From Prosthecobacter gellanilyticus (GTDB lineage Bacteria > Verrucomicrobiota > Verrucomicrobiia > Verrucomicrobiales > Verrucomicrobiaceae), in assembly GCF_007992435.1 (NCBI RefSeq), contig NZ_BKAG01000008.1:124001-188000 (forward strand): DNA of 64,000 bases, read 5' to 3'. The notes beneath the pieces are model-generated. The model was not told the origin of the DNA. It worked only from the letters and a program-made list of their open reading frames with translations, and did no database searches. The first letter of the stretch is position 1; each line of letters opens with the position of its first letter. The translations under genes were made by a program, and so were the position numbers. Below, piece after piece: positions 1,049 through 38,000 of the stretch.

Positions 1049-2854
1049 TTACCTCTTCAGCTTGCGCTTGAGACGCATCCAGGTGGGGACATCGAGGTCT
1101 TCGCCGCCATCGGCAAGGACGGGCTCGGTCTTCTGAAAGCGGCCGCGGTCTTCTTCAGAACCGAAGCGGAAGGCGATCTGCTCGTCGTCCTCGCTCACCT
1201 TGGAGGCGAGACGGGAACCGGGCATGTAAGGGGCGTCTTCCGCCGCAGGCGCGGGTGCGCGGCCGACCACAGCGGCGAGCGAGGTGGTGGGCAGAGGTGC
1301 GGGGCGCGGAGCAGGCTGGGTGATGAAGTCCTCAATGCGCGGCCGTGGAGGGCGCACTGGCTGCACGGGTTCCGGCTCGGGCTCTGGCTCTGGGATGTGA
1401 GCGGCGGCCATCGGCTGCTCGATGATGATCTCATCCGCGAACGGAGAAGGCTCTTCTTCGAAGGTCGCCTCAGCCACGGCCTCAGCCTCAGCTTGCGGCT
1501 CTTCCTCCAGGAAGGACTCAGGCTCGGGCTCGGGTTCAAACTCTGGCGCGCTGACTTCCTCCACGGAAAGCGGAAGCGGTGCGGAGGTGATGGAGGTCGG
1601 AGCCGCAGGAGCGGCGATCTCCTCGCTCCTGAAAAGCAAGTCCATCGGCTCTGTGGCAGGTGCAGACTTGGCGAGCTCAGCTCTCAGGGATGATTTGGAG
1701 GCGCGGGGCGCAGGGGCGGCCGCTGTGGCAGGGATGAGAGTAGGTGATGGTGCTGATGCTGGAGCTGGGGCGTGTGCGGCAGGCGCGCCCAGATTGTCCA
1801 TGATGGAGGGCATCGGGCGATCCTTGACCGGCAGCATGTCCACCGGAGGTGCGGCAGCCGCGACGGTATTCAGTTGAGCGAGACCGAGCGAGCTGAGCAG
1901 CGTGACGCAGACGGAGTCTCCGAGCTTTGCATCCACGGCGACGCCGAACAAGATGTGCGTCTGGTCCGGCACGTTCTTGCCGAGCAGCTTCATGATGGCA
2001 TCCACCTCGAGCAGGGTGAGGGACTCACCGCCGGCGATGTGGACGAGCAGGGTCTTCGTCTGGTGAAGAAGACGACCTTGATCGATAAGCGGAGACTTCA
2101 GTGCGCGCTTCACGGCCTCGCTGCCGCGGTTCTGGCCGCGGGCTTCGCCGAAGCCGAAGAGGCAGCGTCCGTTGGAGGTGTTGAGAGCGGCGGTGAGGTC
2201 ATCGAGGCCCAGCTTCACCAGGCCTGGCGTAGAAAGGATGGTGGACACCGCACGCAGGGACTGGGCAATGAGCTGGTCCGCCTGCGTGAATGCCTTCTGG
2301 ATACCGTCCTTGGGCAGCGTGAGCTCGCCCATGCGGTTGTTTTCAAAGAGGATCAGCGCATCTGCGCGCTTCTGGAGCTGGTCCAGAGATTCCTCGGCCT
2401 GCTTGAGGCGGCGCTTGCCTTCAAAGCTGAAGGGCATGGTGGCGGTGAGAAAGACGAGGGCGCCGGTGCCTTTGGCAATCTCTGCGATGACGGGAGCAGC
2501 GCCGGAACCAGTGCCGCCACCGAGACCGGTGCAGATGAAGACGATGTCATGGCCGTCCACGGCCTCGCGGATCTGCTCGCGGGAGAAGACGGCGGCCTCG
2601 CGGCCGAGCTCCGGATCACCACCGGCGCCGATGCCGCGCATGAGCTCCACCCCGAGCTGCACCTTGTGCGGAGACATCGAGTGGCTGAGCACGCGGATGT
2701 CCGTGTGCACGGTGACCAGCTTGGCCTCCACGGTGCGGTCCAGCGTGATGCGGTCCAGCACATTGCCACCGGCTCCGCCGACGCCGACGATGCAGGTTTT
2801 CAGCGAGCCGGGCTCGATGGTTTCCTTCAGGGCTTTGCGATCATATTCGACCAT
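1049..2854 (-). CDS. ftsZ: Cell division protein FtsZ, divergent
   Basis: FtsZ is the tubulin-like GTPase that forms the cytokinetic ring. In this 601-residue protein the nucleotide-binding N-domain is clear: VGVGGAGGN (23-31), the signature GGGTGSG (112-118) and PFSFEGKRR (141-149). The synergy T7 loop is not canonical. Family members read LINVDFADV, here the aligned residues 212-220 read LVKLGLDDL, so the usual Asn and first Asp are Lys and Gly. From about 330 to 585 there is an unusually long Pro/Glu/Ala-rich linker with Glu-Pro repeats. It is followed by a recognisable C-terminal tail peptide (DLDVPTWMRLKRKLKR) that would bind FtsA. It lies last in ftsQ-ftsA-ftsZ, 56 bp after ftsA. No Shine-Dalgarno sequence precedes the ATG. 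Confidence 0.95.
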   Translation of the reverse strand: MVEYDRKALKETIEPGSLKTCIVGVGGAGGNVLDRITLDRTVEAKLVTVHTDIRVLSHSMSPHKVQLGVELMRGIGAGGDPELGREAAVFSREQIREAVDGHDIVFICTGLGGGTGSGAAPVIAEIAKGTGALVFLTATMPFSFEGKRRLKQAEESLDQLQKRADALILFENNRMGELTLPKDGIQKAFTQADQLIAQSLRAVSTILSTPGLVKLGLDDLTAALNTSNGRCLFGFGEARGQNRGSEAVKRALKSPLIDQGRLLHQTKTLLVHIAGGESLTLLEVDAIMKLLGKNVPDQTHILFGVAVDAKLGDSVCVTLLSSLGLAQLNTVAAAAPPVDMLPVKDRPMPSIMDNLGAPAAHAPAPASAPSPTLIPATAAAPAPRASKSSLRAELAKSAPATEPMDLLFRSEEIAAPAAPTSITSAPLPLSVEEVSAPEFEPEPEPESFLEEEPQAEAEAVAEATFEEEPSPFADEIIIEQPMAAAHIPEPEPEPEPVQPVRPPRPRIEDFITQPAPRPAPLPTTSLAAVVGRAPAPAAEDAPYMPGSRLASKVSEDDEQIAFRFGSEEDRGRFQKTEPVLADGGEDLDVPTWMRLKRKLKR

Positions 2855-2910
2855 GTCGGTGGGGGTGTTGAGGATGGACGGGCGGAACTAACTAAAAGGA
2901 TGAAATGGCT

Positions 2911-4125
2911 TTATGGCACGACCGAGAGGAGGTCGGCCATCTTCCGCCCCAGCTTGCGGAGCGGTGACATGAACGGTTTCTCTTGATCCAGGATCTGAGC
3001 ATAACGTATCAGGCCGATGGGCGCTGAGAACTGCGGTTTCTCGAAAGTGGCGGTCACGCCACTGACGGGAGCCGAGCCTGCGCGCGTCACTTTCCTTTCA
3101 AACACATCTTGTGCCACCACGTCAATTCCTTTCAGCAGGCTCGTGCCACCTGTTAGGTAGATCCCGGCGGCCAGATGACCGATGTGTCCCTCGCAGCGAG
3201 TTTTGACCTGCTCGAAGATTTCACGCACACGGAGGTGGATGACTTCGTTGAGGAAACTGCGCTCGCACTCGGCGATCATGAAGCCGTTGTCGTCCTCCAC
3301 GCGGACGATGTCCTCCGGTGAGAGATCGTCAAAGATGCAGGAGCCTTCGGTGACTTTCAGCTCCTCGGCGCGGCGGTCCGGGATCTGCACTGCCATGGCG
3401 ATGTCCTGGGTGATGTGGTCACCCCCGAGCGGCACGCAGCCGGAGGCGGCGATCATACCGTCTTCATAGAGAACGTAATCCGCCGTGCCACCGCCGATAT
3501 CGATCATCAGGGCGCCCTGGGCTTTGGCCTCGCGGTTCAGCACCACCTGGGCCGCGGCGATGGCGGTGAAGACCACGTCCTCCACCTCCAGCGGCACTTC
3601 GCGCACGCACTTCACAGCGTTTTGAATACGACCACGCACGCCGTGGATGATGTGGTAATCCGCCTCCAGCACGCGGCCTTCACGGCCGATGGGCTGGCGC
3701 ACACCTTCCTGGCCATCCACGATGTACTGGCGGGTGATGCTGTGCAGAAACACATGATCCTGAGGGATCTCGACATTGCGGGCGATCTCCTTCGCCTCCT
3801 CGACATCGTCCTCGGTGATCTCGCCCTGGTCCTCCTGGAGGCGCCAGGCGCCGCGGCTGTTCAGGCTTTTGATGTGGCCGCCGGTGACGCCGAGGAAGAC
3901 GGTGCGGATCATGACATCACTCGGTTCCTCGGCACGCACGAGAGCGTCATTGAGGACGGTCTGCACCTTTTGAAAGTCCACGATCTCCCCTTTGCGCACG
4001 CCGCGAGAGGGTGCGGTGCCGACACCGAGAATCTTGATGGTGCCGTCACGCTTGGCCTCGCCGACGACGACGCAAATCTTGCTCGTGCCGATTTCGAGTC
4101 CTGCGTAGATGGTGCTTTTGGCCAT
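2911..4125 (-). CDS. ftsA: Cell division protein FtsA
   Basis: FtsA is the actin-like ATPase that tethers FtsZ to the membrane. The 404-residue protein starts with the phosphate-1 loop of the actin fold (AGLEIGTSKICVVVG, about 8-22) and has a second phosphate motif IDIGGGTADYV near residue 203. The SHS2/1C subdomain occupies roughly 85-165. The C-terminus (SPLRKLGRKMADLLSVV) fits the amphipathic membrane-targeting helix. Length is normal for the family. The gene is 17 bp after ftsQ and 56 bp before ftsZ, so the three are probably cotranscribed. Confidence 0.96.
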   Translation of the reverse strand: MAKSTIYAGLEIGTSKICVVVGEAKRDGTIKILGVGTAPSRGVRKGEIVDFQKVQTVLNDALVRAEEPSDVMIRTVFLGVTGGHIKSLNSRGAWRLQEDQGEITEDDVEEAKEIARNVEIPQDHVFLHSITRQYIVDGQEGVRQPIGREGRVLEADYHIIHGVRGRIQNAVKCVREVPLEVEDVVFTAIAAAQVVLNREAKAQGALMIDIGGGTADYVLYEDGMIAASGCVPLGGDHITQDIAMAVQIPDRRAEELKVTEGSCIFDDLSPEDIVRVEDDNGFMIAECERSFLNEVIHLRVREIFEQVKTRCEGHIGHLAAGIYLTGGTSLLKGIDVVAQDVFERKVTRAGSAPVSGVTATFEKPQFSAPIGLIRYAQILDQEKPFMSPLRKLGRKMADLLSVVP

Positions 4126-4142
4126 GGCGCTATTCTATTCTA

Positions 4143-5219
4143 TTAACGAACGGATGTTGGGGCTGCTGGAGAGCTGGGGTGTGGAGAAAGGGAGGCAGTG
4201 ACGGGATCCTGGAGGCCTTCGAGATTCGGCGGCTCGCGGAAAATGATGGGCAGGTTCTTCTGCACCAGCAGGTTCAGCGTCTCGATCTTCCACTCGCGAT
4301 GAAGGGCTTCAAGCCAGATACGGTCCAGGCGGGCGAGTTGATCGTCCAGATCATCCACGCCGAAAATGAACTGGCTGCGAAGCTTCGGATCCACGGCACC
4401 CATGCTGGCGGTGAGGGACCAGGGCTTCTGGATGTCGATCTGGTAGAGCTTCAGCAGGCCTTGCTTCTCCTCGCGCTGCTGCAGCTCGCCCAGGAGGTGG
4501 AGCGCGGACTTGATGGAAAGGTCGGTCATCGCTTCGCCAGAGGTGTTGTGCGCCAGTGTCTCATGACGGATCACGGGCAAAGCGTCATAAGCCTCTGTCA
4601 CCACCTCGCAGGGGAAGGTCACCCCTTCGGCATCAATGAAGTGGCCGATCTCAGGCTGGCGTGACTTCATGCCGAGCTTTGGCAGCTCGATCCAGGCCAC
4701 TGGCTGGCGCTGCTTGACCACGATGGTCAGGCGGCCCTCGTAGTCGCGGTTGATCTTCACGGAGCGCACGGCGGGCAGCGTCATGATGCGGCCCTGGATT
4801 TCCCGCATGTTCACGGTCAGCAGGTTCATGCCATGCGTCAGGGCGCTGGTGCGGACGATGCGCTCAGCCGTTACCGGACCTTCCGTGCGCACCACCACCT
4901 GCTTCAGGCTGAACTGCGGGTTCTTTAGAAAAGCCTCACGCACCGTGATCTTCAGCAGGGCACCCAGGCAGATGAAGAGGATCAGGCCCATGGCCCACTT
5001 GAAGCCACGGCGCTTGAAGGCGGCGCGCTCCATCTCGCGGATCTTCGGGGAGTCCACCTTCAGGTTCACGTCCAGCGTCATGCCACCCACCTTGCGGCGC
5101 TTCTTGCCCGCAGACGCAGGAGCCACCTCGGAGGGGGCTCTTGGCACGGGAGAGGCCTTGAGGGTTTTGGCAGGAATGGTTAAACGCGCGGGCATGACAA
5201 AGTCGAAGGCGTGCAACAC
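4143..5219 (-). CDS. ftsQ: Cell division protein FtsQ/DivIB
   Basis: This is a bitopic divisome protein of 358 residues. A basic cytoplasmic N-terminus of about 72 residues is followed by one membrane helix (WAMGLILFICLGALLKI, about 75-91). A POTRA domain follows (about 102-170, beginning PQFSLKQVVV) and then an FtsQ-type beta domain. Start choice is between a GTG at 5219, preceded by GGGAAG at a suitable distance, and an ATG at 5195; I prefer the GTG. It is the first gene of the ftsQ-ftsA-ftsZ cluster. The usual upstream murein genes (murC, ddl) are absent: a divergent gene begins at 5384. The AT-rich 164-bp intergenic region must hold the promoters. Confidence 0.88.
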   Translation of the reverse strand: MLHAFDFVMPARLTIPAKTLKASPVPRAPSEVAPASAGKKRRKVGGMTLDVNLKVDSPKIREMERAAFKRRGFKWAMGLILFICLGALLKITVREAFLKNPQFSLKQVVVRTEGPVTAERIVRTSALTHGMNLLTVNMREIQGRIMTLPAVRSVKINRDYEGRLTIVVKQRQPVAWIELPKLGMKSRQPEIGHFIDAEGVTFPCEVVTEAYDALPVIRHETLAHNTSGEAMTDLSIKSALHLLGELQQREEKQGLLKLYQIDIQKPWSLTASMGAVDPKLRSQFIFGVDDLDDQLARLDRIWLEALHREWKIETLNLLVQKNLPIIFREPPNLEGLQDPVTASLSPHPSSPAAPTSVR

Positions 5220-6956: not shown

Positions 6957-8309
6957 ATGCGCCGCGAGATGCGTTTGTTCTCTCGCATGAGTTCCGCTCT
7001 CTCCCGCCGCCATCTTCTCCGCCAGCTCCCGCTCGCCGCACTCGCCGGTGGTTTTCACATTCATGCGCGCTCGCAGGAGTCGAAGCAGCTCTGGGTCACC
7101 GGGAATCCGAACATGGACAAAGCCCGCGAGATCGCGGTGAACCTCCTGAAGCCCACGCAGGCGCAGATCGAGCATGCCTGGGAGCTGCATTTCAATTCCG
7201 TGGTGTTTGAGAGCTATGGCTTTGCCCCGCGCTGCGCCATCGATGCAGAAGCCATGAACGAGGCCATCAAGTCAGGTGCCTCGGCTGCTGAGATCACCGA
7301 CCTGCGCGAGTCCATGTCCATGAATCGCAACGCCACGAACGAGCGCGAGCGAAAAGAGTTCCTGGATGCTTTCCATGCCGCTGGCGTGACCTGCATCTTC
7401 CAAAACACCGGTGAGGAGGGCAGTGATCCCATGCGCCTCATCAAACGTCTCGCACATTTCACCAAGGCGACGGATCTCTTGAAGCCTGCGCTTACCAAGG
7501 TGACGACCGCGGAAGAGATCGAAGGCTTGAAGAAAGCCGGTCATGTGGGCCTCTGCTTCACCATCAATGGCGTGCCTTTGATGCAGGACTGGGAAAGCGT
7601 GTCGGATGAGTTGCGCTTCGTGCGCATCTTCCATGAGCTCGGCACGCGCATGATGCATCTCACCTACAATCGTCGGAACCCGATCGGCGATGGCGCAGGC
7701 GAGCCACATGACGGTGGCCTGAGTGACTTCGGTCATGCCGCCGTGGCGGAGATGAACAAGCTCGGCGTCATTATCGATGTCGCGCACAGTGGTTGGAAGA
7801 CGGCCTTTGATGCGGCGAAGGCTTCAAAGAAACCCATGGTCGCCAGTCACACCACCTGCTGCGGTGTGTATGAGCACTTCCGTGGCAAGCCCGATGACAC
7901 CATCAAGGCCATCTGTGATACCGACGGCCTTGTGGGCATGTGCTGCATCCCACGTTTCCTCGGCGGCAAAGGCGATATCACCGCCTTGATGGATCATCTG
8001 GATCACGTCATCAAAAAGTTCGGCGCCAAGCATGCCGCCATCGGTTGTGACACCGCCTACATCTCGCGCTACGACAAAGAAGAGCGCGCGAAGCTGATGA
8101 AAGCGCCTGCTGGAAGCTCGGGCCGATGGGAGCATCTCTGGCCGAAGGATGAGTATGTGACCACGCTCGAAGCCGAGCAAAGCGTGGCCTGGTCCAACTG
8201 GCCGCTCTTCACTCTCGGCATGATCATGCGCGGTCACAGTGATGACACCATCCGTCAGGTCATCGGCGGCAACATGCTCCGCGTGCTGAAGGCGAACACC
8301 GTGGCGTGA
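6957..8309 (+). CDS. Membrane dipeptidase-like protein (peptidase M19)
   Basis: This is a renal-dipeptidase-fold (M19) amidohydrolase of about 450 residues with an N-terminal export signal containing SRRHLLRQLPLAALAGG, compatible with the Tat pathway. Family landmarks are present: HLTYNRRNPIGDG, the metal-ligand regions VIIDVAHSGW and MVASHTTC, and IGCDTAY near the C-terminus. Two acidic ligands typical of M19 look replaced. HxD appears as HFN (ELHFNSVVFE), and the bridging Glu region reads TINGVPL. Catalysis may therefore differ, or the protein belongs to a variant subfamily. Starts at 6957, 6969 and 6987 are all possible; 6957 immediately follows the upstream stop. Confidence 0.82.
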   Translation: MRREMRLFSRMSSALSRRHLLRQLPLAALAGGFHIHARSQESKQLWVTGNPNMDKAREIAVNLLKPTQAQIEHAWELHFNSVVFESYGFAPRCAIDAEAMNEAIKSGASAAEITDLRESMSMNRNATNERERKEFLDAFHAAGVTCIFQNTGEEGSDPMRLIKRLAHFTKATDLLKPALTKVTTAEEIEGLKKAGHVGLCFTINGVPLMQDWESVSDELRFVRIFHELGTRMMHLTYNRRNPIGDGAGEPHDGGLSDFGHAAVAEMNKLGVIIDVAHSGWKTAFDAAKASKKPMVASHTTCCGVYEHFRGKPDDTIKAICDTDGLVGMCCIPRFLGGKGDITALMDHLDHVIKKFGAKHAAIGCDTAYISRYDKEERAKLMKAPAGSSGRWEHLWPKDEYVTTLEAEQSVAWSNWPLFTLGMIMRGHSDDTIRQVIGGNMLRVLKANTVA

Positions 8310-8317
8310 TTGCAGAT

Positions 8318-8383
8318 GTACGTTGTTCACGCTTGAGCGTGTTCTTCGATCGTCATTGACACGCTAAAGCGTGAACAACGTAC
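8318..8383. repeat. REP-like palindromic element, family A copy 1
   Basis: This 66-bp near-perfect inverted repeat has arms GTACGTTGTTCACGCTT and AAGCGTGAACAACGTAC around a variable centre. The same element occurs at 28220-28285 and 51441-51508. Here it sits between convergently transcribed genes (M19 protein and Ser/Thr kinase), so it could also act as a bidirectional hairpin. Confidence 0.9.
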
Positions 8384-8397
8384 GAGTCTGGCGCGCT

Positions 8398-10302
8398 CTA
8401 CTCATCCTTCTCCTCCTCATCCTCCTGCCAGTCCAGCACGATGCGAAAGCCAATGACCGGAAGACGCATCTTGTTAGGCAGGGCACGAGGAAAGCCAAAG
8501 TTCACGGCCGCCGGCGTGCCATCGTGGTAGGCCGCGCCACGCAGGCGCACCTTGGCCTCGTTGTCGTTTTCCGCGTCATCGGAAACCCATTCGGCCATGT
8601 TTCCGGAGATGTCATACAGACCAAACGGCTCTGCCGGAAAAGAGCCCACCGGCGCGGAGCGTGGGAAGGGGTCACGCTCTTCAAAGGTCCGCCATGCCTG
8701 TGGCCATCGATCATCCCGGGCCTCGGGTCCGGCCACGTTTCCTGCGCGGGGCTGCGCGCCCGGACCTCCGGCAGCGGTCTGCCATTCGGCATTCTCCGGC
8801 AGGCGATAGCGCTGCCAGGGTTTGAGCCGGCCCTCCGTCACTTCCTTCCAGGTCAGCCAGTCGCAGAAACGCCTCGCTTCAAACACGGTGAAGAAGCAGG
8901 CCGGATGATCCGGACTCACGGCATAACCAAGATTGTTCCAACCACCGACGGGAGCCAGCTTGCCGCCGACATCGAGGATGTAGAAATTACTCAGCACCGT
9001 TTCCTTGGCGCGTTTCGCGCTCGCCGCGCGCCAGGCCGAGTTCAGCAGGCTCCTTTCCGCCATGATGAAAGGCTCCACGTCACGACGTCGCGCCTCCCAG
9101 ATGGAGAAAAGCACACGCGTTCCTGGCACGGGCACAAACCTCATGCCGAGACTGTTCTCCCAGGGCTGCTCCCTCGTGGCATTCATGGGCTTGGCAAACA
9201 CGGGCGGTGGTGGCGGAGCCATGTGCTGCTTCTGCCAGATCGCCCCTGCCGTGGCCGTGATGGCAGCGAGCACGATGCCTGCGGCCACAATCCGGATGCG
9301 CCGCCACTTCTGCGTGCGATGCGCGCCATGCAGGTGTTGCTGCCAGGCCGCCCTCACCTCATGGGCCAGCGTGTTGGCGCTCGCCGTGCGCTTCACGGGA
9401 TCCGCCTCCAACGCATTCGCGATGCTCCGATCAAAAGCTGCGGGCAGCCCGGTGATCCGTGAAACAGGCGTGTAGTTTCCCAGCGGCATCTGACCGGCCA
9501 GCAGATGATAAAGCAGCACGCCGAGCGCATAGATGTCCGCAGGTGGTCCCGCGCTCTTCGGCGAGAGGATGCGCTCCGGCGCGAGGTAGTAGGCGGTACC
9601 AAAGTTCTCCGTGGTGCCCGTGAAGGCGCCGATGGTGGAACCCGAGCCAGGACCGATGTCCTTCGCGAGTCCGAAGTCTGCCAGCTTCACCATCCCATCA
9701 TGCGCGGTGAGGATGTTCGCGGGCTTGATGTCACGATGCGCGAAGCCCTGCTCATGCGCATGAGCCACCGCCGAACATACTTTGCCAAAAATGTCGACCG
9801 CACGTTCACTTGCCAGTTTCTCCGCGCGCAGCAACCGCTCGAGATCGCAGCCTTCGACCAGTTCCATCACCAGGCAGAAGCGGCCGTCATCCGTCTCATT
9901 GGTTTCCAGCACGCGCACGATGTGCGGATGATGCAGTTTCATCAGCGCATGAGCCTCGGCTTCAAAGCGCGCCGCCATCAGCGGATCACGAGACCATCTG
10001 GACTCCAGCACCTTCACGGCTCCCGGACTGCCATCTCTTGCAGATTCGGCACGGAACACACGCCCCATGCCGCCAGCACCTAGAATGCCCGTGATGGTCC
10101 ATCCGGGCACCGTGGGTAATGAGTCATCCGCTTCAGATTCATGGCCTGAGGTCACCAGCCATCCGGTGTCCGCATCCAGCGCGCTGCGGGAAAAGCACGG
10201 CGCGCACAGTCCGCCGAGATCGATCGAGACCGTCGACGAACCACAGCGCGGGCAGGAATGCTCGGTGCTGGCTTCTTGAGCTGGTTCAGGCGCGGCTTTC
10301 AT
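8398..10302 (-). CDS. Transmembrane Ser/Thr protein kinase with FGE-like domain
   Basis: A 634-residue Hanks-type kinase. An N-terminal zinc ribbon has Cys17, Cys20, Cys33 and Cys36. The kinase domain (about 68-320) has the glycine loop GAGGMG (75-80), Lys97 in AVKVL, HRDIKPAN (189-196) and DFG (209-211), so it should be active. A transmembrane helix lies at about 336-355. The exterior part (about 381-628) is a formylglycine-generating-enzyme/SUMF1-type domain (NSLGMRFVPVPG, YDISGNMAEWV, GFRIVLD). The position where true FGEs carry a catalytic Cys in an R(S/C)-type motif here reads FGFPRALPNK. This suggests a ligand-binding module rather than an enzyme. It overlaps the upstream sigma-factor gene by 17 bp, implying translational coupling. 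Confidence 0.93.
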   Translation of the reverse strand: MKAAPEPAQEASTEHSCPRCGSSTVSIDLGGLCAPCFSRSALDADTGWLVTSGHESEADDSLPTVPGWTITGILGAGGMGRVFRAESARDGSPGAVKVLESRWSRDPLMAARFEAEAHALMKLHHPHIVRVLETNETDDGRFCLVMELVEGCDLERLLRAEKLASERAVDIFGKVCSAVAHAHEQGFAHRDIKPANILTAHDGMVKLADFGLAKDIGPGSGSTIGAFTGTTENFGTAYYLAPERILSPKSAGPPADIYALGVLLYHLLAGQMPLGNYTPVSRITGLPAAFDRSIANALEADPVKRTASANTLAHEVRAAWQQHLHGAHRTQKWRRIRIVAAGIVLAAITATAGAIWQKQHMAPPPPPVFAKPMNATREQPWENSLGMRFVPVPGTRVLFSIWEARRRDVEPFIMAERSLLNSAWRAASAKRAKETVLSNFYILDVGGKLAPVGGWNNLGYAVSPDHPACFFTVFEARRFCDWLTWKEVTEGRLKPWQRYRLPENAEWQTAAGGPGAQPRAGNVAGPEARDDRWPQAWRTFEERDPFPRSAPVGSFPAEPFGLYDISGNMAEWVSDDAENDNEAKVRLRGAAYHDGTPAAVNFGFPRALPNKMRLPVIGFRIVLDWQEDEEEKDE

Positions 10303-11104
10303 GGGCGAGTGCCTTCACGAGATAACGTGTCTCCTCCTCGATCTCCTGCTGCGAAGCCTCCGGCCCGAGCGTGCCCGCTGCTTCCGCGCGCAGAAACTCG
10401 GCCAAGCGCTTTCTCATGCGATGCACTTCAATGCGGATTTGGGCTTCACTCACGCCGAACATTAAACCAATGTCAGCATAAGGTTGCACGCCCTCATTGG
10501 AAATGAGCACCGGCTTCAGTTGGTTGAGCAGCGCGGACTTGTTGCGTCGCGCATAGCTCTCTTCCAGTTGCCGCATCGCACGGCCACACAGCGTCAGCGC
10601 CCATTCACGGTCGAAGACGGACTCCGGCTCGGCTTCGTGAGTGCCCTGGGCAGACTCCGGCACTTCATCCAAAGACAGCGTGGCGGCCCCGCCTCCGCGC
10701 TTCTGTGCCTGCGCATCCCGATACAGATTGTAGCAGTGATGCCGCGCGCTGGATTTCAGGTAATGCCGCAGCCGCCCGCGCGCACGGTCAAACTGCCGCA
10801 GCCCGTCCTTGCCTAACAATTGCGACATGATCTCCTGCGCACCATCTTCCGCATCCGGGATGTTCAGGCCAAGCGCGCGCAGGTAGTTCACCACCGGCCG
10901 CCAGTAGGCGCGGCACAGCTCCTCACGCGCGGCGATGGTCTCCGGCGCGGCCGGATCACATGCCGCCAGCAGCACCGTCCATGCCGTGGGTGGAAAGCCC
11001 CGGTCATCAGGATTCGCGGTGATGGGACGGGCGGATGACACGCGGCACCAAACGTCATCTCCGGCCTGCGGGCAAGCAGCGGTATGTGACGCACGGCCTG
11101 TCAT
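10286..11104 (-). CDS. ECF-type RNA polymerase sigma factor
   Basis: A 272-residue sigma-70 family protein of the type found with Ser/Thr kinases in Planctomycetota/Verrucomicrobiota. The signature start FPPTAWTVLLAACD (about 37-50) is followed by region 2 (EELCRAYWRPVVNYLRALG, then DAEDGAQEIMSQLL). The region-4 helix-turn-helix appears as YADIGLMFGVSEAQIRIEVH near 220. The N-terminal 35 residues from the ATG at 11104 look unconserved, so a downstream start is possible. The ATG at 11104 overlaps the stop of the RHS gene by 4 bp (ATGA), and the 3' end overlaps the kinase gene by 17 bp. The overlaps suggest one transcript, with kinase and sigma as a signalling pair. Confidence 0.88.
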   Translation of the reverse strand: MTGRASHTAACPQAGDDVWCRVSSARPITANPDDRGFPPTAWTVLLAACDPAAPETIAAREELCRAYWRPVVNYLRALGLNIPDAEDGAQEIMSQLLGKDGLRQFDRARGRLRHYLKSSARHHCYNLYRDAQAQKRGGGAATLSLDEVPESAQGTHEAEPESVFDREWALTLCGRAMRQLEESYARRNKSALLNQLKPVLISNEGVQPYADIGLMFGVSEAQIRIEVHRMRKRLAEFLRAEAAGTLGPEASQQEIEEETRYLVKALAHESRA

Positions 11105-14100
11105 TGGCCAAACATGAGAAGACAGTCCATCACCGAAAGCGCCTCCACGGCCAGCCCCGTGCCGGGTGGTGCGGAGACTCCGAAGTTAGACCCATAGCCA
11201 AAGCCCAGGGTGGCTGCGCCAAGAGGCCGTGGAAGGCTGGTGGGAATGCCGAAGAGCTCAAGGGCGCAGTTCTTCGGCTTGCCGGTGCTCCCGACCTGGA
11301 AGATCACCGCATTGGCCACACCAGCCCAGAGATTGGAAACACAGCTCGCATAAGAGCAGAGCGCACCAGGCCGCACGATGCCGACGATCAGCTCGATGTA
11401 CTCCAGCGCGGCATTCTGGCCGGTGGGATCCCGGAACATCACCGGATTGTTTCCCGCATAGCGGTAGAGGTTCATGTCACCGCCCTTGAGGCCGAGCGGA
11501 TCCTCCTGGGTGAAGCGGCCCAGACGCGGATCATAGTAGCGCGAGCGCATCTCATAGAGTCCGAGGGCCTCGTTGTAGAAACGACCTGCGAAACGCAGGG
11601 TGTCGATGCCCGGAGGCGCGGCACCGATGAGATTGCCAAACGCATCATACGAAGCCCAGAAGACCATGCTGCCCTCGGCGGACATGGCTCCCTGCACGGT
11701 GCCGATGTGGTCGGTGAACAGGAGGCGCTCACTGGAGCCCTGACGCCATACTCCGTAAAAGGTGTCGAGCTTGCTCGGATCATAGAGGAAGGCGGCATTC
11801 ACCGCGTTCGCACCATCTGCAAACTCAGCCAGCGGCATCTCGCGATCATAGAGAATCCAGGTCTTCGCGCCGTTCAGGCTGCGGCTGATCATGCGGCCCG
11901 CATAGTCATAGGCAAACTCGACCGTGGTGCTGGCAGGTGCGACGGCGTTGGCATGTAGCGTGGCCTGCACGAGCTGGCTCCGGTGGTCATAACTGTAGCG
12001 TGTGACCTGCCCGCTGGCGCTGTCCGTCTTCTCGGTGACATTGCCCTCGGCATCATGCGTGAAGGAAAGCGTGCCCGTGGTGAGCAGGCGGTTGCCAGTG
12101 CCGACTGTCGAGGGACCTGGAATGAGATGCGAAGACGTGCGCACGCCCATGGTGTTGTAGGTGTAGCTCTCCGCAACTCCACCGGTATGGGTCACTGCGG
12201 TGAGCTGGTCCAGCGGATCAAAGGTATGCGTCGCGGTATCGCTGGCTCGGGCGATGCTCGTGATCCGGCTTTCCGCATCGCGTGTGAGCACCGCCGGGGC
12301 TTCCGGATTCAGCGGCACGCCCGCGCCATCCGTGTGAGTGATGTTCGTCAGCCGGCCCAGCAGATCCCAGGTGTAGCTTGTTCGTGACTTCATCGGCCCG
12401 CCATTGTGATAGCGGCGGATCTCGGTGAGCGCGTTGTTCGCATTGCGATAGAAGTCCAGCGTCGGTCCAAAGAAATTGTTAGGCGGTGACCAAAGCAGGC
12501 GCTGCAGGTTCGGGCCCTTGTACTCCGCGATGATGCGGAAGAAGTCCGCGCCTCCGGTGACCAGCATCTGCGTTGGAGCGGGGTTGTCTGACACGGTCTC
12601 AGCCCCGCAGCAGCCACCGGATCCGCCGGCATCATTCGCACCCCAGGAGTAGGCGATCTGCTTCCGCACCTGTCCAGGATAGGTCACTCCGATCGCACCA
12701 GGTCTTGGCAAAGGACCGGCAAAATCCCAGGTGCCGCCGCTGTCCGTGATCACGGAGATGGAGTCATCGAATTGATACGTCACCGTGATGTCGCGGATCA
12801 CCGCGCCCGTTCCATCATGCCAGCGCTCATGCGTGACACGGTTGCTGCTGTCATAGGTAAAGGTACGGCGCTTGCCGTTGCGGTTGATGATCTCCGTCAC
12901 GTTGCCTGCCGTGTCGTAGGCGATGGTGGCAAAGGCTCCCGTGGGATCCGTGAATCTTGTGAGGCGGTTCAGCGCATCATACTGCCAGCTGGTGGTGTTG
13001 TTCGCGGCATCGGTGATGCTGGTCACATTGCGTTCCTCATCACGTAGGACGGAGGTGCTGGATCCGCCGGGCAGCGTGATCTTGTCGATCCTGCCGTCTT
13101 CAGTGGTGAGATAGTCCGTGGTGCGGCCGAGGCGGTCGGTGTCACGGCGTGTGCCATTTGGCAGCAGGGTGCTGCTCTTGCTGTGGTTATACGGATCCGT
13201 CTGCTGGGTCGGTACGCCCTGCGCATCATAGGCGAAGCTGAAGGTGCGGCCACCTGCCAGCGTGGCGTTTGTCATGTTTCCGTCGCCCGTAAAAATGGTC
13301 TGCGCGGCGAATCCGAAGGGACTTCTCACGGCGCTGAGACGGCCCTGCGCATTGTGCTCATAGGTGGTCACCAGATCCGGCCCTCCCGCGGGATTCGGAC
13401 TCGCCAAGGTGGCCAGCTTTCCCTCCGGCGTGTAGCTGTAGGTTCCCGCCGGTTTGCCGGGTTCAGAGGCCGTGGCCAGATTGCCCTTCGCATCGTAGGT
13501 GTAAGTCGCGGTCTCGCCGTTGAAGGTGCGCCGTGTGAGCATCTTGCCATCCGCATTGTAAGTCGCGTTGAAGTGTGAGCTGGGCCGGATCATCTGAGTC
13601 ACATGACCATGGGCATTGTACTGCCAGGTCTGCACATTCCCGCGTGCATCGGTGCGCTTGGTTTGCCTGTCAGGATTGGCCGGGTCATTGAACTCAAAGG
13701 TGGTGGTCTGGTTCAGCGCATTAGTCTCGCTCGTCACATTGCCGCGTTCGTCATAGACCAGGCTCGTCACGTTGCCGCGACGATCCGTGAGCGTGCCGGT
13801 GAAGGCTCCTGGATCCAGATCCAGCTCGGAGCGCTCGCCATTGGCATCAATGATCGCCACAAGCTTGCCTCCGGCGTCATATTCATAGGTCACACCCACG
13901 CGGCCCAGAGGATCACTCACATCCTTCAGGAAGTGCGCGGGATTCGCATGATAACTCATCTCGGTCACGCGGTTGTCATCATCCGTCACAGTCACGAGAT
14001 CTCCTGCGGCATCATAGCCATAACTAATGATCACACCATCCGGAGCCTGGATCTGCGTGATGCGGTTGTTGCCATCACGCGTGAAGGTGATGGCGGCTCC

Positions 14101-17082
14101 GGTGCTGTGACGAAGACCGCTGGCCGTGGCGGAAAGCACGTTGCCATTGCGGTCGCGTGCCTCGCGGAAGCCGCTGTCTTCATCATAAGTGTAGCGCGTG
14201 CCATCCGGCGTGGTGAGGATGTAGACGGAGGGATTCCAGGCCGTGCCGAGGAAGGAGAGGAAGACATCACCGTTGCTGTCGATGGCGAGAAAGGGATTGT
14301 TTCCTTCCGGCACCTCCAGGGTTTCATACACGCCGGGATCGGCGATGAACTCCGCTTTATACACGGCACCAAACAGGCCGCCGACACCGAACTCCGCGTG
14401 AAAGGTGAAGCCTGCGCGCTTGCCGCCGGGTGTGTTCACATACACGCGGGTGCCTTCACGGAAGGGCGTGTTGCCAAACATGCCGCTGCCGGTGTCCGCC
14501 ACAGTCTCCTTCACATCCGGATTGAGGAAGGCGAGGCTCCAGCCATGCCCGAGCCCCTGGTCTCTCTCCGCATCGAGTGAATCATAGACACGCCGGATCA
14601 CAAACGGGATGCCACCCACAGGCAGCGAGAGGTCCGTGAACTCACGGCGCAGACGTCCTAGCTTCACCGTGCCCGCGACTTCAATAGGCAGCGGCTCTGC
14701 CCAGCCGAGACGGATGTCATTCCAGGCCGTGATGCGCACGATGTAGGAGCCATCCGGGATCAACGAAGTGTCCAGGCGGGCGATGACATTGTTCGTGATG
14801 GTGGTCGTGCCTTGGGCAATGCGCTTCCACGGCGGCTCACTAGATCCGAGGTCATTCAGATCCACCATGTTTGCAGGCGCATACTCCGCGAACCATTCCA
14901 CCAGCGGCCTTGTGCTGGTGATACTGCCCATGATGGGTGTGACAAGTCCGGCCGTGCTGCCTTGCGCAGGCGAGGTGATGGTCACACGTGGCTGGATGTC
15001 CTCCGCATTCACGCCTTTGGCGAAGACCTGCCCGCGATACACCGTGGCACCACCACCCGTGGGCGTGGCACGCAGCCGGAGAAAGTAAATGCCGTTAGGC
15101 AAGGTCGCGATAGGCAACGTGCCCGCGCTTTGATTCGCCAGATAACCCGTGCCGCTGGCAATGCTGACCCAGTCTGGATCCGCGGCAGGCATGTTGTAGG
15201 GATCAATCAGCGCGACGGGTGCATAGTCGAGCACCCAGTGTGGTGTGGCCAGGCCTTCGATGGTGACCACCACGGGTGTGTTGTTGGTTAGGATCGCTCC
15301 CGAGTAAGGCGTGATGACACGCGCATCCAAGGTTCCTTCCACACCAGCGCCCGTGAGGTTGAGATTGAAGGGAGACGAGCCGTCCGCGTTGAGCACATAG
15401 ACAGTGGCTTCCTCGGTCGTCGTATGCCCGCCGGTGTCCGTCACGGTCGCCACTAACTGCACGGCGCCTGCGGTGGGCAGCGGCACTGTGCCCTCACCTT
15501 CAGCATTGAGGGAGATCGCCGCGCCATTGGCGGTGAGGCCTCTCGATGCGATGCCGATGTCATCCGCTGTCAGCACCTGCACGGGCGCGCTTTGTCCGGC
15601 CCGGAACTCCGCGCCATCCACAAACAGAAACACATCCGGCGGATCATCACGGAAATGCCTGCCGAAGTTCTGGTTCTCATACACTTCATTGCCCGCGATC
15701 ACGAGCTCGATGGAGCCCGCCCTCGGCCGAGCGAAGTTCACCGCTTCCGCGCCGACCAGATCAAAGCCCTGTGAAGCACCCTGGCTGCTCGTGGAGGTGA
15801 TCTTCACATACTGCACCACGCCGGTCACACCGCGCGTACCGAGATCGATCGGGATGGCGGTGGAGCTCGCGCCTAGCTGCTCGATGATCGTGCCTGCGTT
15901 TTGCAGCGTGCCGTTGGTTAGGCCGAGCTGGATCGTCGCTTCTTCATTCACTCCCTGGGTGATGACGTGGATGATCAGATCCGTGCCCGGCCTGTCGATG
16001 ATGCGCTCATCAAACCGCCAGGTGATGGAGCCGGTCTCGGGAATCGAGAGGTACTCATTGTAGCTCCACACCGCCGTCGGCGGCAGGTTGCCACGCCGAC
16101 CGATGGGCTTGAGCGTGATCGCGGGATCGAGAGGTTGATTGGCACGAAAGGCGATCTGCGGCACCACCACGGAGGTGTCTTCCGGAATGCCGTAAGGCAC
16201 GGCAAAATCACCCCCCACACCATGCGTGTAGTTCACCACTTCATCAGGCAGACGATTCAGCACCGGTGAAGCGCCGGGTGCTGGCAGTGTCTGCAGTTGT
16301 CCCGCTGCCAGAACCTGCCGCACGGGATACACACCAGGCAGGAGATGCGTGAACTCATACTGGCCGGAGACATTTGTTTCAGTCACGGGTTCATCGCTGT
16401 CGAACTCGCCATTGAAGTTAGTGTCGAGATAGACGGAGGTGCCTTGCAAGGCCTGCCCGTCCGCCGTGTTGCCATCGCCATTGGGATCGGTCTTCACCAC
16501 GCCGCGGATGGTGCCGCCCTGCGGATTCGCCACGAGAGGATTGGTGAAGGTCTGGTAGATCTCCGCGCCATCACTCAGGGTGTCGCCATCCGTATCCGCG
16601 AGCAGCACATTGGTGCCGAGAATGCCTTCTTCCAACGATGAGAGGCCATCGCCATCCACATCCAGCGGTTCCAGGGCTCCGAGGCGGTAGAAGCCTCGCC
16701 CACCACTCAGGGTGAAGTTTTGCGACATGAGTGCTCCCGTGCCGTTCAGCGTCGGGCTGAGGGAAGTCCACGACACCAGCGACACTGTTTGTTCGATCTC
16801 ATAGCGCGCGCCCAGACTGGAGGGCCAGGAGATCGTGATGGAACCTGGGGCTCCTGCTGAGATGAGCGAGGGCGGGATGGACGTGGCCTGACGTGGATGC
16901 GTGCCGAACAAATATTCCTCCCACGTGGTGAAGCCATCCGCATCATGATCCCAGTCCCACTCATAGGTGTGCAGGTTGTAGCGTTTCAGCCAATAGTCAC
17001 CCGGTTCACCGGCTGATGAGGTGCCACGGCCCAGCATCAGAGCCAGCGGCAGGATGAGAAATAAAACGGGGGGAGTTTTCAT
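11101..17082 (-). CDS. Giant RHS/YD-repeat surface protein
   Basis: A ~1993-residue secreted protein. The ATG at 17082 is chosen because GGAGGGAA precedes it at good spacing and it opens a signal peptide ([18 protein letters not shown]); an in-frame start at 17106 is less likely. In order there is a calcium-binding thrombospondin-3-like segment ([26 protein letters not shown]) and an SdrD-B-like domain ([18 protein letters not shown]). Ig/FnIII-like regions with probable bacterial surface adhesive roles follow, then many YD/RHS repeats, and the RHS core end ([19 protein letters not shown], then [10 protein letters not shown]). After DPTG there is a 105-residue Cys-containing hydrophobic tail that I do not recognise as a toxin. 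The sigma-factor gene starts within its stop codon, and no obvious immunity gene follows. Confidence 0.92.
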
Positions 17083-17214
17083 GGGGCTCTTCCCTCCGAT
17101 GAACAACTCCCGGCCCGACGTTGCAGTCCGCCGCCAGATTTTTCCGCGCTGGGAAATTCCAGCATGGTGCGGGCAAATGCGCGCGTTATGCTTTTCCTCG
17201 TTTCCAACCTCTGC

Positions 17215-18264
17215 ATGAAACCCCTCCTCGCCGCCTTTTTCGCCCTCACACTCGCTGCTTCAGCCCGGGACAAGACGCTGGACATCTACTGGATCGACTC
17301 CGAAGGCGGAGGCTCCACGCTCATCGTCACACCTGCGGGTGAATCCGTGCTGGTGGACACCGGCAACCCTGGCGGACGTGATCCGCAGCGCATCCAGAAG
17401 ATTGCGAAGGAGGTCGCAGGCCTGGAACGCATTGACCACGTCATCATCACGCATTTTCATGCGGATCACTTCGGCGGTCTGGCCGAGCTCGCGGCCTTGA
17501 TGCCCATTGGCACGCTGCATGACAAAGGTGTGCCGGAAGGCAGTCCCGATGGCAAGCCGCAGGATGCACGCTGGGCGCTGATGCGTCGTCCTTATCTCGA
17601 TGCGAAGGTGGAGAAGCGCGCGACGATTGGCGCCGGTGTAGAAGTGCCGCTGAAGCAGGCGGAAGGCAGTCCGAAGCTCGTCCTCCGCTGCCTGGGGGCT
17701 AACCAAAAGTTTATTCCACCGTATCCCGACCAGCCGGAGAACCCGCTCAAAGGTTCCGTGCCTCCGAAGGAGGTCGATCCGACCGACAATGCGAACAGCG
17801 TGGTGCTCGTGCTCGAATACGGCGGCTTCCGTTTCTTCGATGGCGGTGACCTGAGCTGGAATGTGGAGGACAAGCTGGTGTCACCCTTCAACCTCGTCGG
17901 CACCGTGGACCTGTATCAGGCCAACCATCACGGTCTGGAAGTGAGCAACAACCCCATCCTCATCCGTAGCCTGCAGCCGACGGTTTCCGTGATGAACAAC
18001 GGCCCGAAGAAAGGCACCAGCAAATCCGCCATGGATGCGCTGAAGTCCACACCGACCCTTCAGGCCATGTATCAGGTGCATGAAAACGTGCGCGACGATC
18101 ACGAGAACACCGCGGACAAGAGCATGATCGCGAATCACGGTGATCTCGCGGAAGGTTGTGCGGCGAATCACATCCACTGCACGGTCAGCACGGATGCGAA
18201 GAGCTACACCCTCGAGGTGCCTTCCCAAAAACACACGCGAACCTTCCAGACACGGGCGAAGTAA
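17215..18264 (+). CDS. Exported metallo-beta-lactamase-fold hydrolase
   Basis: The protein is about 349 residues with a signal peptide ([17 protein letters not shown]) and the metal-binding motif [10 protein letters not shown] typical of the metallo-beta-lactamase fold. Later histidines occur in [12 protein letters not shown], a pattern shared with the hydrolase domain of ComEC/Rec2 proteins. It is likely periplasmic; the substrate is unknown. Starts further upstream (17164, 17188) are open, but 17215 best fits the signal peptide. It is divergent from the RHS gene, with roughly 130 bp between the two starts. The stop is only 3 bp from the convergent gene at 18268. Confidence 0.85.
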
Positions 18265-34940: not shown

Positions 34941-35024
34941 AGACTCCGCCATTCCATGTCAGATTCCGCTCCCATGGCGAGGAAGGGCAGGGGATGCGCG
35001 TATTCCCCTCTCCCACCCCCACTC

Positions 35025-38000
35025 ATGCGTTCGCTGTTCGCCATCTTGATCTCTTTGCCCGTCGCTGCCAGCGCCGTGGATTTTTCGCGCGAGATCCGGC
35101 CCATCCTCTCGGAGAACTGCTTCTTCTGCCACGGCCCCGATGAAAAGAAGCGCGAGGCCGGCCTGCGCCTCGATGAAGAACTCTCCGCCAAAAAAGACAA
35201 CGACGGCGTCATCGCCGTGGTGCCTGGGAATCCCGAAAAGAGCGCCCTCCTCCAGCGCATCCTTTCCACCGATCCGGATGAGGTCATGCCTCCGCCGAAG
35301 CAGCACAAAATCATCCCCGCTGCCCAGATCGCCCTGATCAAAGAATGGATCAAGCAAGGCGCCACCTGGGGCAAGCACTGGAGCTATGAGAAGGTCAAGC
35401 GCTCCGAAGTCCCCGGTGAAGCAAAGCAGCCCATTGACGCCTTTTTGGTTCAGCGTTTGAAAAAGGAAGGCCTCGCCTTCTCCCCCGAAGCCGATGCTGC
35501 TACTCTCGTCCGTCGCGTGTCCCTCGACCTCACGGGCCTGCCGCCAACCTTGGAGGAACTGGAGAAGTTTGCGGCCCCATCGGCATCCTATGAAAGCATG
35601 GTCGATCACTACCTCGCCAAGACCACCTTCGGCGAACACTGGGCCTCGCAATGGCTCGACCTCGCGCGCTATGCCGACAGCTCCGGTTATCCCAGCGATC
35701 AACCCCGCGAGATCTGGGCCTATCGTGATTGGGTCATCCGCGCGCTGAATGCGAACATGCCGTTCGACCAGTTCACCCTCGAGCAGCTTGCCGGCGATCT
35801 CCTGCCGAACCCGAACGATGACCGTCTCATCGCCACCGCTTTTCATCGCAACACGATGACGCAAAACGAAGGTGGCACGAGCGATGAAGAGTTCCGTAAT
35901 GCGGCCGTGATCGACCGCGTGAACACGACCTTCGCCGTGTGGATGGGCACCACCATGGCATGCGCGCAGTGTCACACGCACAAGTATGATCCGCTGACCC
36001 ACAAAGAGTACTTCCAGATCTATGCCTTCCTGAATCAAAGCGCGGATGCCGACAAGAAAGACGAGTCACCGCTGCACTCCTTCGTCACCCCCGAGCTCAA
36101 GAAGCAGCGCGAAAATCTCGAAACCGAGATCGCCGCACTCGAGTCCCGCTTCGCCAAGCCTGACGCCAAATGGCTTGCAGGCCTCGAAGGCTGGGAAAAG
36201 CAGTTCCGCCAGGAGCTTCCCTGGAAAGCGGAGCCACCAACAAAAGTCACCACCCAAAGCGAGCAGAAGGCCGTGGTCGGCACAGATGCCATCGTTTCCG
36301 TCCCAGAGCGTCGCGACACAGATGGTTATACCCTGGAGCTGCCCGTGAAATCAGAAAGGATCACCGCGCTGCGCTTGGAAACCATGCCCACGCCGGGCTT
36401 CGGCAACTTCGTCCTCACCAGCCTCAAAGCGCTGATCATCCCGCCCGCAAATCTGCCAGCTCCGAAAGCCCGCTTTGTACGTGTGGAACTCCCCGGCAAA
36501 GACCAGCCACTCCAACTCGCCGAGGTGCAGGTCTTTGGCGCGGGTGATAACCTCGCCTTCCGCCGTCCGGCGAAGCAGAGCAGCAACTATGCGGATGCTG
36601 ATGCACGTCGCGCCGTCGATGGCACCACCGAGGGAGACTACGCCAAAGGCAGCGTCGCCCACACCAGCGGCCAGGACACTGATCCTTGGTGGGAAGTGGA
36701 GCTCAAAGACGACTCCTCCATTGAGCGCGTCGTGGTTTGGAACCGCACGGATGGTGATGTCGGCAAGCGTCTCGAAGGCTTCCGCGTCGTGCTGCTCGAT
36801 GCCAAGCGCCAGACCGTGTGGAAGAGCGAGTCCACCGCCGCTCCCGCCAAGGACAAAACCTTCGCCATCGGCGGCCCTGTCAGCGTCACCTTCTCCGCTG
36901 CGCTGGCCGATCATGAGCAAAACGGCTTCACCGCCGCCTCCGTCATCCTGCCAAAAGACAAAAACAACCAAGGCTGGGCCGTCGCTCCACAAATCGACAA
37001 GCCTCACACCCTCACTCTTCTCTGTGCCTCGCCCGTCATGGCGCCCGCAGGCTCCACTCTCCGCGTGACCCTGGAGCACCAGTCGAGTCATAAGCAACAT
37101 ACGTTAGGCAAGTTCAAGCTCAGCCTCACCGATGATCCACGCGTGCAGAGTGTCACCGCACTGCCCTCAAACATCCTCGCTGCCGTCACCATCGCGCCTG
37201 ACAAGCGCACGCCTGCGCAGCAGTCCGTGATTCAGGATCACTACATCCGCACCGTCGCCAAGGAAGCCGCGCCTGAGCGCAAGAAACTGGCCGCCTTGCA
37301 GAAGCAGCTCACCGCCTTGAAGCCTGTCACCGTGCCCATCATGAAGGATCTTAGCGGCAAAGATCGCCGCGTCACCAAGATCCAGCTTCGCGGTAATTGG
37401 CAGGACCTCGGTGATCAAGTGGCTGAAGGCACCCCCGCCATCTTCCCGCCTCTGCCCAAGGATGCGCCGATGAACCGCCTCACGTTGGCCCAGTGGCTCG
37501 TTAGTCGTGACAATCCACTCACCGCCCGCGTGCAAGTAAACCGCCTGTGGGAAACCCTCTTCGGCACCGGCATCGTCCGCACCAGCGAGGAGTTCGGCAG
37601 CCAGGGCGATCTCCCATATCATCCTGAGTTGCTCGACTGGCTCGCCGCCGAGTTCATGGACAGCGGCTGGGACGTGAAGCACATGCTCAAGCTCATGCTC
37701 ATGACCCAGGCCTATCGTCAGAACAGTACAACGAACTTTCCAGTTCAGGACCGTAGAACGAACTTTCCAGTTCGTTCAGCAGCCAGTTCAGAGAGTGAAC
37801 TTGGAAGTTCACTTGTCGAACGCGACCCCGACAACCGCCTCATCGCCCGCGGCCCGCGCTTCCGCCCCACTGGCGAGATGCTTCGCGATCAAGCCCTCGC
37901 CGTCAGCGGCTTGCTCAGCGCCAAAATGTATGGCCCCAGCGTGCGCCCCGTCGCACCAAACATGGGCCTCACCACCGCCTTCGGCCGCAGCAACGACTGG

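Follow-up and report, generated by a model that had tools for sequence, protein, structure and literature searches.

A kinase-linked ECF sigma factor beside a giant RHS protein gene in Prosthecobacter gellanilyticus, and a promoter-like element shared with the large neighbours of its nearest sigma–kinase relatives

A stretch of 64,000 nt of the genome of Prosthecobacter gellanilyticus (contig NZ_BKAG01000008.1, positions 124,001 to 188,000; the window in the following) carries three adjacent genes for a giant RHS/YD-repeat protein, an extracytoplasmic function (ECF) sigma factor and a membrane Ser/Thr kinase with a domain resembling the formylglycine-generating enzyme (FGE). The sigma and kinase genes form a pair that recurs in related genomes, and a promoter-like element in front of the RHS gene is also found in front of dissimilar large genes beside the closest relatives of this pair. 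All coordinates are positions in the window, and all three genes lie on the minus strand (Table 1). The original prediction, made from the sequence alone, had proposed these three genes, and open reading frames (ORFs) together with profile matches confirm them as real. The ORFs extend over 11101-17106 (RHS), 10286-11104 (sigma) and 8398-10302 (kinase), with overlaps of 4 nt between the RHS and sigma ORFs and of 17 nt between the sigma and kinase ORFs.

Table 1. Features of the three-gene locus, in window coordinates.
Feature	Position	Strand	Basis
RHS/YD-repeat protein, 1993 aa from ATG 17082, stop 11101, signal-peptide-like N-terminus	11101..17082	-	ORF and profile matches
Gap of 59 nt from RHS stop to probable sigma start, without terminator-like site in 10900-11500	11042..11100	-	
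ECF sigma factor from probable GTG start (ORF extends to ATG 11104)	10286..11041	-	Profile matches; start from 34/34 homologues
Ser/Thr kinase with FGE-like domain, 634 aa, membrane helix by eye, overlaps sigma gene	8398..10302	-	
Protein kinase domain, residues 70-276	9475..10095	-	Pfam match; HRDIKPAN and DFG motifs
FGE-like (sulfatase-modifying-factor) domain, residues 405-594, no Cys in C-terminal part	8521..9090	-	
RHS repeat-associated core domain (TIGR03696)	11416..11649	-	
RHS C-terminal tail, about 105 aa, least conserved part, no significant Pfam match	11104..11415	-	
58-aa domain 'Y..ie.S.DL..W...FYRV', RHS residues 81-135, also in other proteins beside this sigma family	16678..16842	-	
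Promoter-like element TGCAAC-N15-GTTCA, 43 nt before RHS start codon	17100..17125	-	Only exact copy in own genome

The sigma factor scores above the curated cut-off for sigma-70 region 2 (PF04542, 29.6 over 24) and above the cut-off of the ECF sigma model (TIGR02937, 43.7 over 42.9). Its own genome holds 22 matches to this sigma family, and relatives are also present in Planctomycetota. The kinase gene matches the Pkinase (162.6 bits) and FGE-sulfatase (69.9 bits) profiles. Its HRD and DFG motifs are intact, as was originally predicted, and a transmembrane helix was judged by eye. The prediction that the FGE-like domain lacks the usual Cys also holds, since no Cys occurs in its C-terminal part, where we take the catalytic Cys of FGE to sit; the domain does not qualify as a formylglycine-generating enzyme. 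A search for solved structures gave matches for the kinase domain only and none for the sigma factor. The RHS protein matches PF05593 with 221 bits and TIGR03696 with 83.6 bits over a cut-off of 32.5, and DUF6531 also lies over its cut-off. Read from ATG 17082, it begins with MKTPP and is signal-peptide-like by a simple home-made rule. Calcium-binding-like repeats were recognized by eye in its front part, and the match to SdrD_B there is below cut-off.

The start of the sigma gene determines how the junction with the RHS gene is to be read. Start codons were decided by homologues, as the gene caller used trims starts. In 34/34 homologues (22 and 12, two near-identical genomes among them) a candidate start lies 4-12 codons before the conserved aFPxTxW, and in several of them the frame is closed by a stop shortly before it, which rules out a longer start. 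The window sigma offers GTG 11041 at codon -13 and ATG 11104 at codon -34 relative to this motif, the GTG lying 21 codons inside the ORF. A codon model gives the 21 codons upstream of the GTG a score of -5.5, which counts little because codons 1-20 of the kinase score low as well (-3.6). The sigma gene probably starts at GTG 11041, 59 nt behind the RHS stop, as judged from these alignments. The predicted 4-bp overlap persists between the ORFs and probably disappears as a junction between genes, and the translational coupling of RHS and sigma that had been proposed is likely an artefact. The spacing alone is unsurprising, because short gaps are common among 243 control pairs: same-strand neighbours are at most 60 nt apart in 46 and overlap by 4 nt in 9. 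Promoter and terminator scans of 10900-11500, 17000-17300 and 8250-8500 gave a single weak terminator-like site, on the opposite strand.

Sigma and kinase belong together. Among 89 sigma-like genes, a set that includes a few loci counted twice or from near-identical genomes, a kinase lies within 300 nt downstream in 59 and upstream in 7; 24 of the 59 downstream kinases, that of the window included, carry an FGE-like domain. For the 22 sigma homologues that were followed up, the next gene downstream encodes a Ser/Thr kinase in 20 and one with an FGE-like domain in 19, the exceptions being located at contig ends. Loci of similar score outside these 22 are L107, L049 and L050 (kinase without FGE-like domain) and L108 (no kinase found). 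The predicted 17-bp overlap of the sigma and kinase genes stands and is general, as the nearest possible kinase start overlaps sigma by 1-17 nt in 16/18 other pairs. Sigma and kinase distances correlate with r = 0.97 over 19 pairs, a value uncorrected for species descent and expected for any two co-inherited genes. We also observe, in L042 (G049:C40, 7454-8976, minus strand), a tandem pair of sigma genes of this family behind the gene for a 1951-aa kelch/propeller protein.

The RHS gene behaves differently. Within 3 kb of the 89 sigma genes an RHS gene is present once, at the window itself, with some loci cut by contig ends. None of 20 other RHS loci has an adjoining sigma gene, the nearest lying 5.1 kb away, and of the 30 RHS-core loci taken from 59 genomes in the family, only that of the window has a sigma gene in its 1.5-kb flanks. 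A scan of 386 genomes from the order, with two candidates scored in each (here and below), listed 14 strong RHS matches in 11 genomes; among those with readable surroundings the sigma–kinase pair adjoins only the window's copy, with contig ends cutting off several of the others. Identity is 37-44% for the full-length matches, which lie in other families of the order, and a partial match (residues 705-1900, 37%, G057) is present within the genus. Conservation of the RHS–sigma junction, on which the original prediction had staked itself, is absent at the 88 other sigma genes and at 29/29 other RHS-core loci. We reject the RHS protein as a conserved partner of the sigma factor; as far as the genomes compared can tell, its presence at this locus is lineage-specific.

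What recurs beside related pairs, at the three nearest sigma relatives and at eight loci of another subclade, is a large protein of changing family that looks exported. For the two nearest sigma relatives, G008:C72 and G077:C50, the only other common gene within 9-12 kb encodes a protein of 1266/1256 aa, divergent from sigma, 57% identical between the two loci and without a Pfam match. Another copy of this protein (43%) is encoded in G077:C3, there on the downstream side of the kinase gene. At the next nearest relative, G077:C35, the position divergent from sigma is taken by a DUF5650-repeat protein of 1284 aa. These three large-neighbour families of the window's subclade (RHS, 1256-aa, DUF5650) show no BLAST similarity to one another. 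In another sigma subclade a protein of about 850 aa, with a weak TSP3 match below cut-off, is divergent beside sigma. It is common to five loci in four genera and two families; in G076 its gene is 802 nt from sigma with small ORFs between. The 386 genomes contain 11 matches to this family, of which 8 are divergent beside sigma and kinase, 2 are not and 1 is at a contig end. Just before its start codon, L146, L272 and L245 show by eye an inverted repeat like GGATGA...TCATCC, perhaps an mRNA hairpin.

Some further sigma–kinase pairs adjoin FG-GAP or Ig-type proteins. Others have ordinary neighbours, one of them presumably a Gfo/Idh-like protein, so not every pair has a giant neighbour. The gene upstream of sigma encodes at least 600 aa in 8/22 related loci versus 36/240 control genes (P 0.017), a signal peptide in 12/22 versus 60/240 (P 0.005) and both in 4/22 versus 14/240 (P 0.05). 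Over all 79 loci the counts are 29 (P 8e-5), 25 (P 0.24) and 9 (P 0.13), respectively. These statistics are post hoc and uncorrected for kinship, and signal peptides were called by the home-made rule.

In the divergent loci, the sequence between the genes includes a conserved block, which lies on the large gene's strand. TGCAAC-N15-GTTC is found before the large gene in 4/4 loci of the window's sigma subclade, the RHS gene included, at offsets from the start of -53 (G077:C50), -37 (G008:C72), -50 (G077:C35) and -43 (RHS). The sigma tree unites these four loci with support of 100/98. In the group with the 850-aa neighbour, 8/8 loci carry TGTAAY-N15-GGCC. No possible start of the 263 control genes has either form within 75 nt. 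In 800,000 control positions the relaxed form is found 7 times and the strict form never; these controls are 20 stretches of 20 kb placed at round coordinates, not random, and one (G010:C184) contains a sigma gene of the family. The element is absent before 14 RHS homologues without a sigma gene seen beside them, for three of which the contig ends about 0.4 kb or less away; this comparison is the only control that was fixed beforehand. TGCAAC-N15-GTTCA is present once in the 7.65-Mb own genome, before RHS, and once in G008, before the large neighbour of sigma. A model built from the two nearest relatives alone scores the RHS upstream region at 23.3, compared to 12.3 for the best of 256 control upstreams.

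Gene content, the sigma–kinase pairing, the recurrent large neighbours and the shared element, absent from the controls, are the observations from which we read the locus. We consider it rather probable that it encodes a kinase-linked ECF sigma factor with one dedicated, swappable exported target, and represents a signalling switch with one output. The FGE-like, non-catalytic binding domain of the kinase would sense something outside the cytoplasm. The kinase, made together with the sigma factor from overlapping genes, would most likely activate it by phosphorylation. The sigma factor may then direct RNA polymerase to TGCAAC-N15-GTTCA upstream of RHS, with the giant, putatively exported RHS/YD protein as output. 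In the nearest relatives the same type of pair would drive other giant exported proteins from the same element, the target being swapped while the switch is kept. The RHS gene is oriented towards the pair and separated from it by 59 nt; because it is co-directional with sigma and kinase and no terminator was seen, read-through could raise the expression of the switch itself. The giant neighbours and the shared element strengthen the earlier idea that a kinase-linked sigma factor has a surface protein tied to it; the phosphorylation step in this idea stays presumptive. If the kinase acts on the sigma factor, the site is not that of EcfP, as Ala stands where most relatives have a Thr in the acidic motif. 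Thr19 and Thr224 (counted from GTG) are invariant among aligned sigma homologues.

A wider version of this reading is more tentative, and we regard it as possible rather than probable. A group of kinase-linked ECF factors of Verrucomicrobiota would consist of one-target circuits, in which each pair has its own promoter and serves one giant exported protein through it. Evolution would exchange the protein (RHS, the unnamed 1256-aa family, DUF5650 repeats, the 850-aa family) and keep switch and promoter. RHS would have taken over the promoter of a former target, and its orientation would have turned the locus into a positive-feedback surface switch.

Several observations speak against the sigma factor with one dedicated target. 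The motif was first defined with the window's sequence in view; G077:C35, examined later, ends in GTTCT and was missed by the GTTCA form, and the motif was then shortened by one base. Outside the two groups the relaxed form is found in 0/11 neighbour genes, and the second form in 1/17 (L037) versus 1/263 controls. No element precedes the G077:C3 copy of the 1256-aa protein gene, which follows the kinase gene. The model of the 850-aa group misses the elements of RHS and the two nearest relatives, and the reverse holds equally. The own genome also contains one copy of the reversed pattern used as a control. G077 has six copies of the pattern, one of them at the C50 locus. In L290 (G077:C48, 2481-9355) it stands 66 nt before a second DUF5650 protein of 1279 aa, which is 52% identical over 491 residues to that of G077:C35. 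On that strand, 1.3 kb further downstream, come a distant sigma of the family (32% identity with the window sigma) and a kinase, in an order like that of the window, so the pattern does not strictly track one sigma subclade. The upstream region of the sigma gene itself has no element on the sigma strand. At one of the loci with the 850-aa protein (G043) the sigma frame contains a stop. A Thr is present beside the DAED motif in 17/21 homologues, where the window sigma has Ala. The promoter register is ambiguous as well: an AT-rich block one step upstream allows TGYAAY to be a -10 box, and a -10 box at GTTC would leave only a very short leader. A promoter common to the sigma genes themselves was considered and rejected, as upstream regions of sigma genes, aligned in two sets, have nothing in common outside close relatives. 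ECF factors are described with AAC at -35 and CGT at -10 (PMC8103513). TGCAAC agrees with this -35 motif, and GTTC does not agree with the -10 motif.

The element could be the site of another regulator, or the promoter of another sigma factor for genes of exported proteins, an explanation that we think unlikely yet place ahead of the other alternatives. The second DUF5650 gene of G077 fits it, as the nearest sigma gene is the distant family member 1.3 kb away, and so do the differing forms of the two groups, neither model finding the other. TGTAAT also resembles the housekeeping -10 box. The same element before three dissimilar proteins of the window's subclade, and its lack before RHS genes elsewhere, argue against such a regulator, and a single copy in each of two genomes is unlike a general promoter. 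Less probable still is that RHS and the pair are chance neighbours, so that an RHS gene landed upstream of an ordinary ECF sigma–kinase pair regulating genes elsewhere and the element is coincidental. The single RHS gene near 89 sigma genes, the frequency of short gaps in control pairs and the many different contexts of the sigma–kinase pair speak for chance. The element speaks against it: by base composition, the strict form would fall within 66 nt of a given start with a probability of about 4e-5, the element is present in all four subclade loci and missing before the 14 other RHS genes, and its relaxed form is missing from the 263 controls.

A polymorphic RHS toxin, which would be followed by an immunity gene and have nothing to do with sigma and kinase, is very improbable. 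The protein has the expected RHS core with DPxG motifs ahead of its C-terminal tail, and the tail is its least conserved part, with 14-28% identity to four G049 copies, varying as such toxin tails do. However, the best Pfam match of the tail is the insignificant GerPB (E 0.14) and no toxin family is matched, while the front of the tail can be aligned with six G049 copies. The next gene downstream encodes a sigma factor and no immunity gene follows directly; of the 5 readable G049 copies, 4 are followed by a mechanical ORF in the opposite orientation.

The proposed sigma–kinase switch resembles known systems in part. Examples of ECF43 are EcfK–PknS of Xanthomonas citri and EcfP–PknT of Vibrio parahaemolyticus (PMC13147305, PMC8999054). 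Shared with ECF43 is the position of an ECF sigma gene beside that of a Hanks-type Ser/Thr kinase, and variable outer kinase domains are described for ECF43. In contrast, ECF43 factors lack the acidic DAED and carry a phospho-Thr there, whereas the window sigma keeps the acidic region-2.2 motif as PDAEDGAQE with Ala in place of Thr, so the replacement of DAED by uncharged residues with a phospho-Thr that marks ECF43 is not seen in it (PMC8999054, PMC13147305). Unlike EcfK, which according to these texts drives a type VI secretion system, the window sigma probably has one adjacent exported protein as output. Other kinase-linked groups, ECF59, ECF61, ECF62 and ECF217, listed with planctomycete examples, likewise have a kinase neighbour and a retained acidic motif; the excerpts of these descriptions at hand mention no dedicated exported neighbour with a shared upstream element (PMC8999054). 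The RHS protein shares RHS repeats, RHS core and DUF6531 with polymorphic toxins and teneurin-like RHS/YD-repeat proteins. It differs from them in its signal-peptide-like start and in a calcium-binding-like front instead of a secretion adaptor, and from RHS toxins in its short tail without toxin match and without an immunity gene seen. Among the open-access papers listed, judged by titles and abstract openings, none is on a module of kinase, ECF factor and exported protein, and the reviews, in the parts available, describe targets for few kinase-linked ECF factors (PMC8999054, PMC8103513). A single adjacent target with a 26-nt element unique in the genome would bring promoter, signal and kinase substrate within reach of tests with a single reporter. 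We suggest that such systems may serve the display of a giant surface protein, the displayed protein being exchanged between lineages.

The RHS protein also contains a 58-aa domain for which no Pfam name was found. It is rare (8 genomes have 2-25 copies each), and its frequency within 2 kb of genes of this sigma family is about 4- to 6-fold above expectation. The upstream neighbour contains it for 8/79 sigma genes versus 0/263 control genes, with a model partly grown on those neighbours. Genome-wide, 7/90 copies lie within 2 kb of sigma compared to 1.2 expected. After exclusion of 7 copies already seen, 5 copies near sigma are counted (P 0.009). This proximity test took 129 of 140 sigma rows, the 11 weakest being dropped.

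Further genes of the window lie apart from the locus. About 3 kb from the kinase gene is a cell-division cluster on the minus strand (1049-5219) with FtsZ (601 aa), FtsA and an FtsQ-type POTRA protein. On the plus strand, a large PSCyt1/PSCyt2/PSD1 protein with a galactose-binding domain is encoded at 34956-38492 and a large DUF4394 protein with an Ig domain at 45047-48508.

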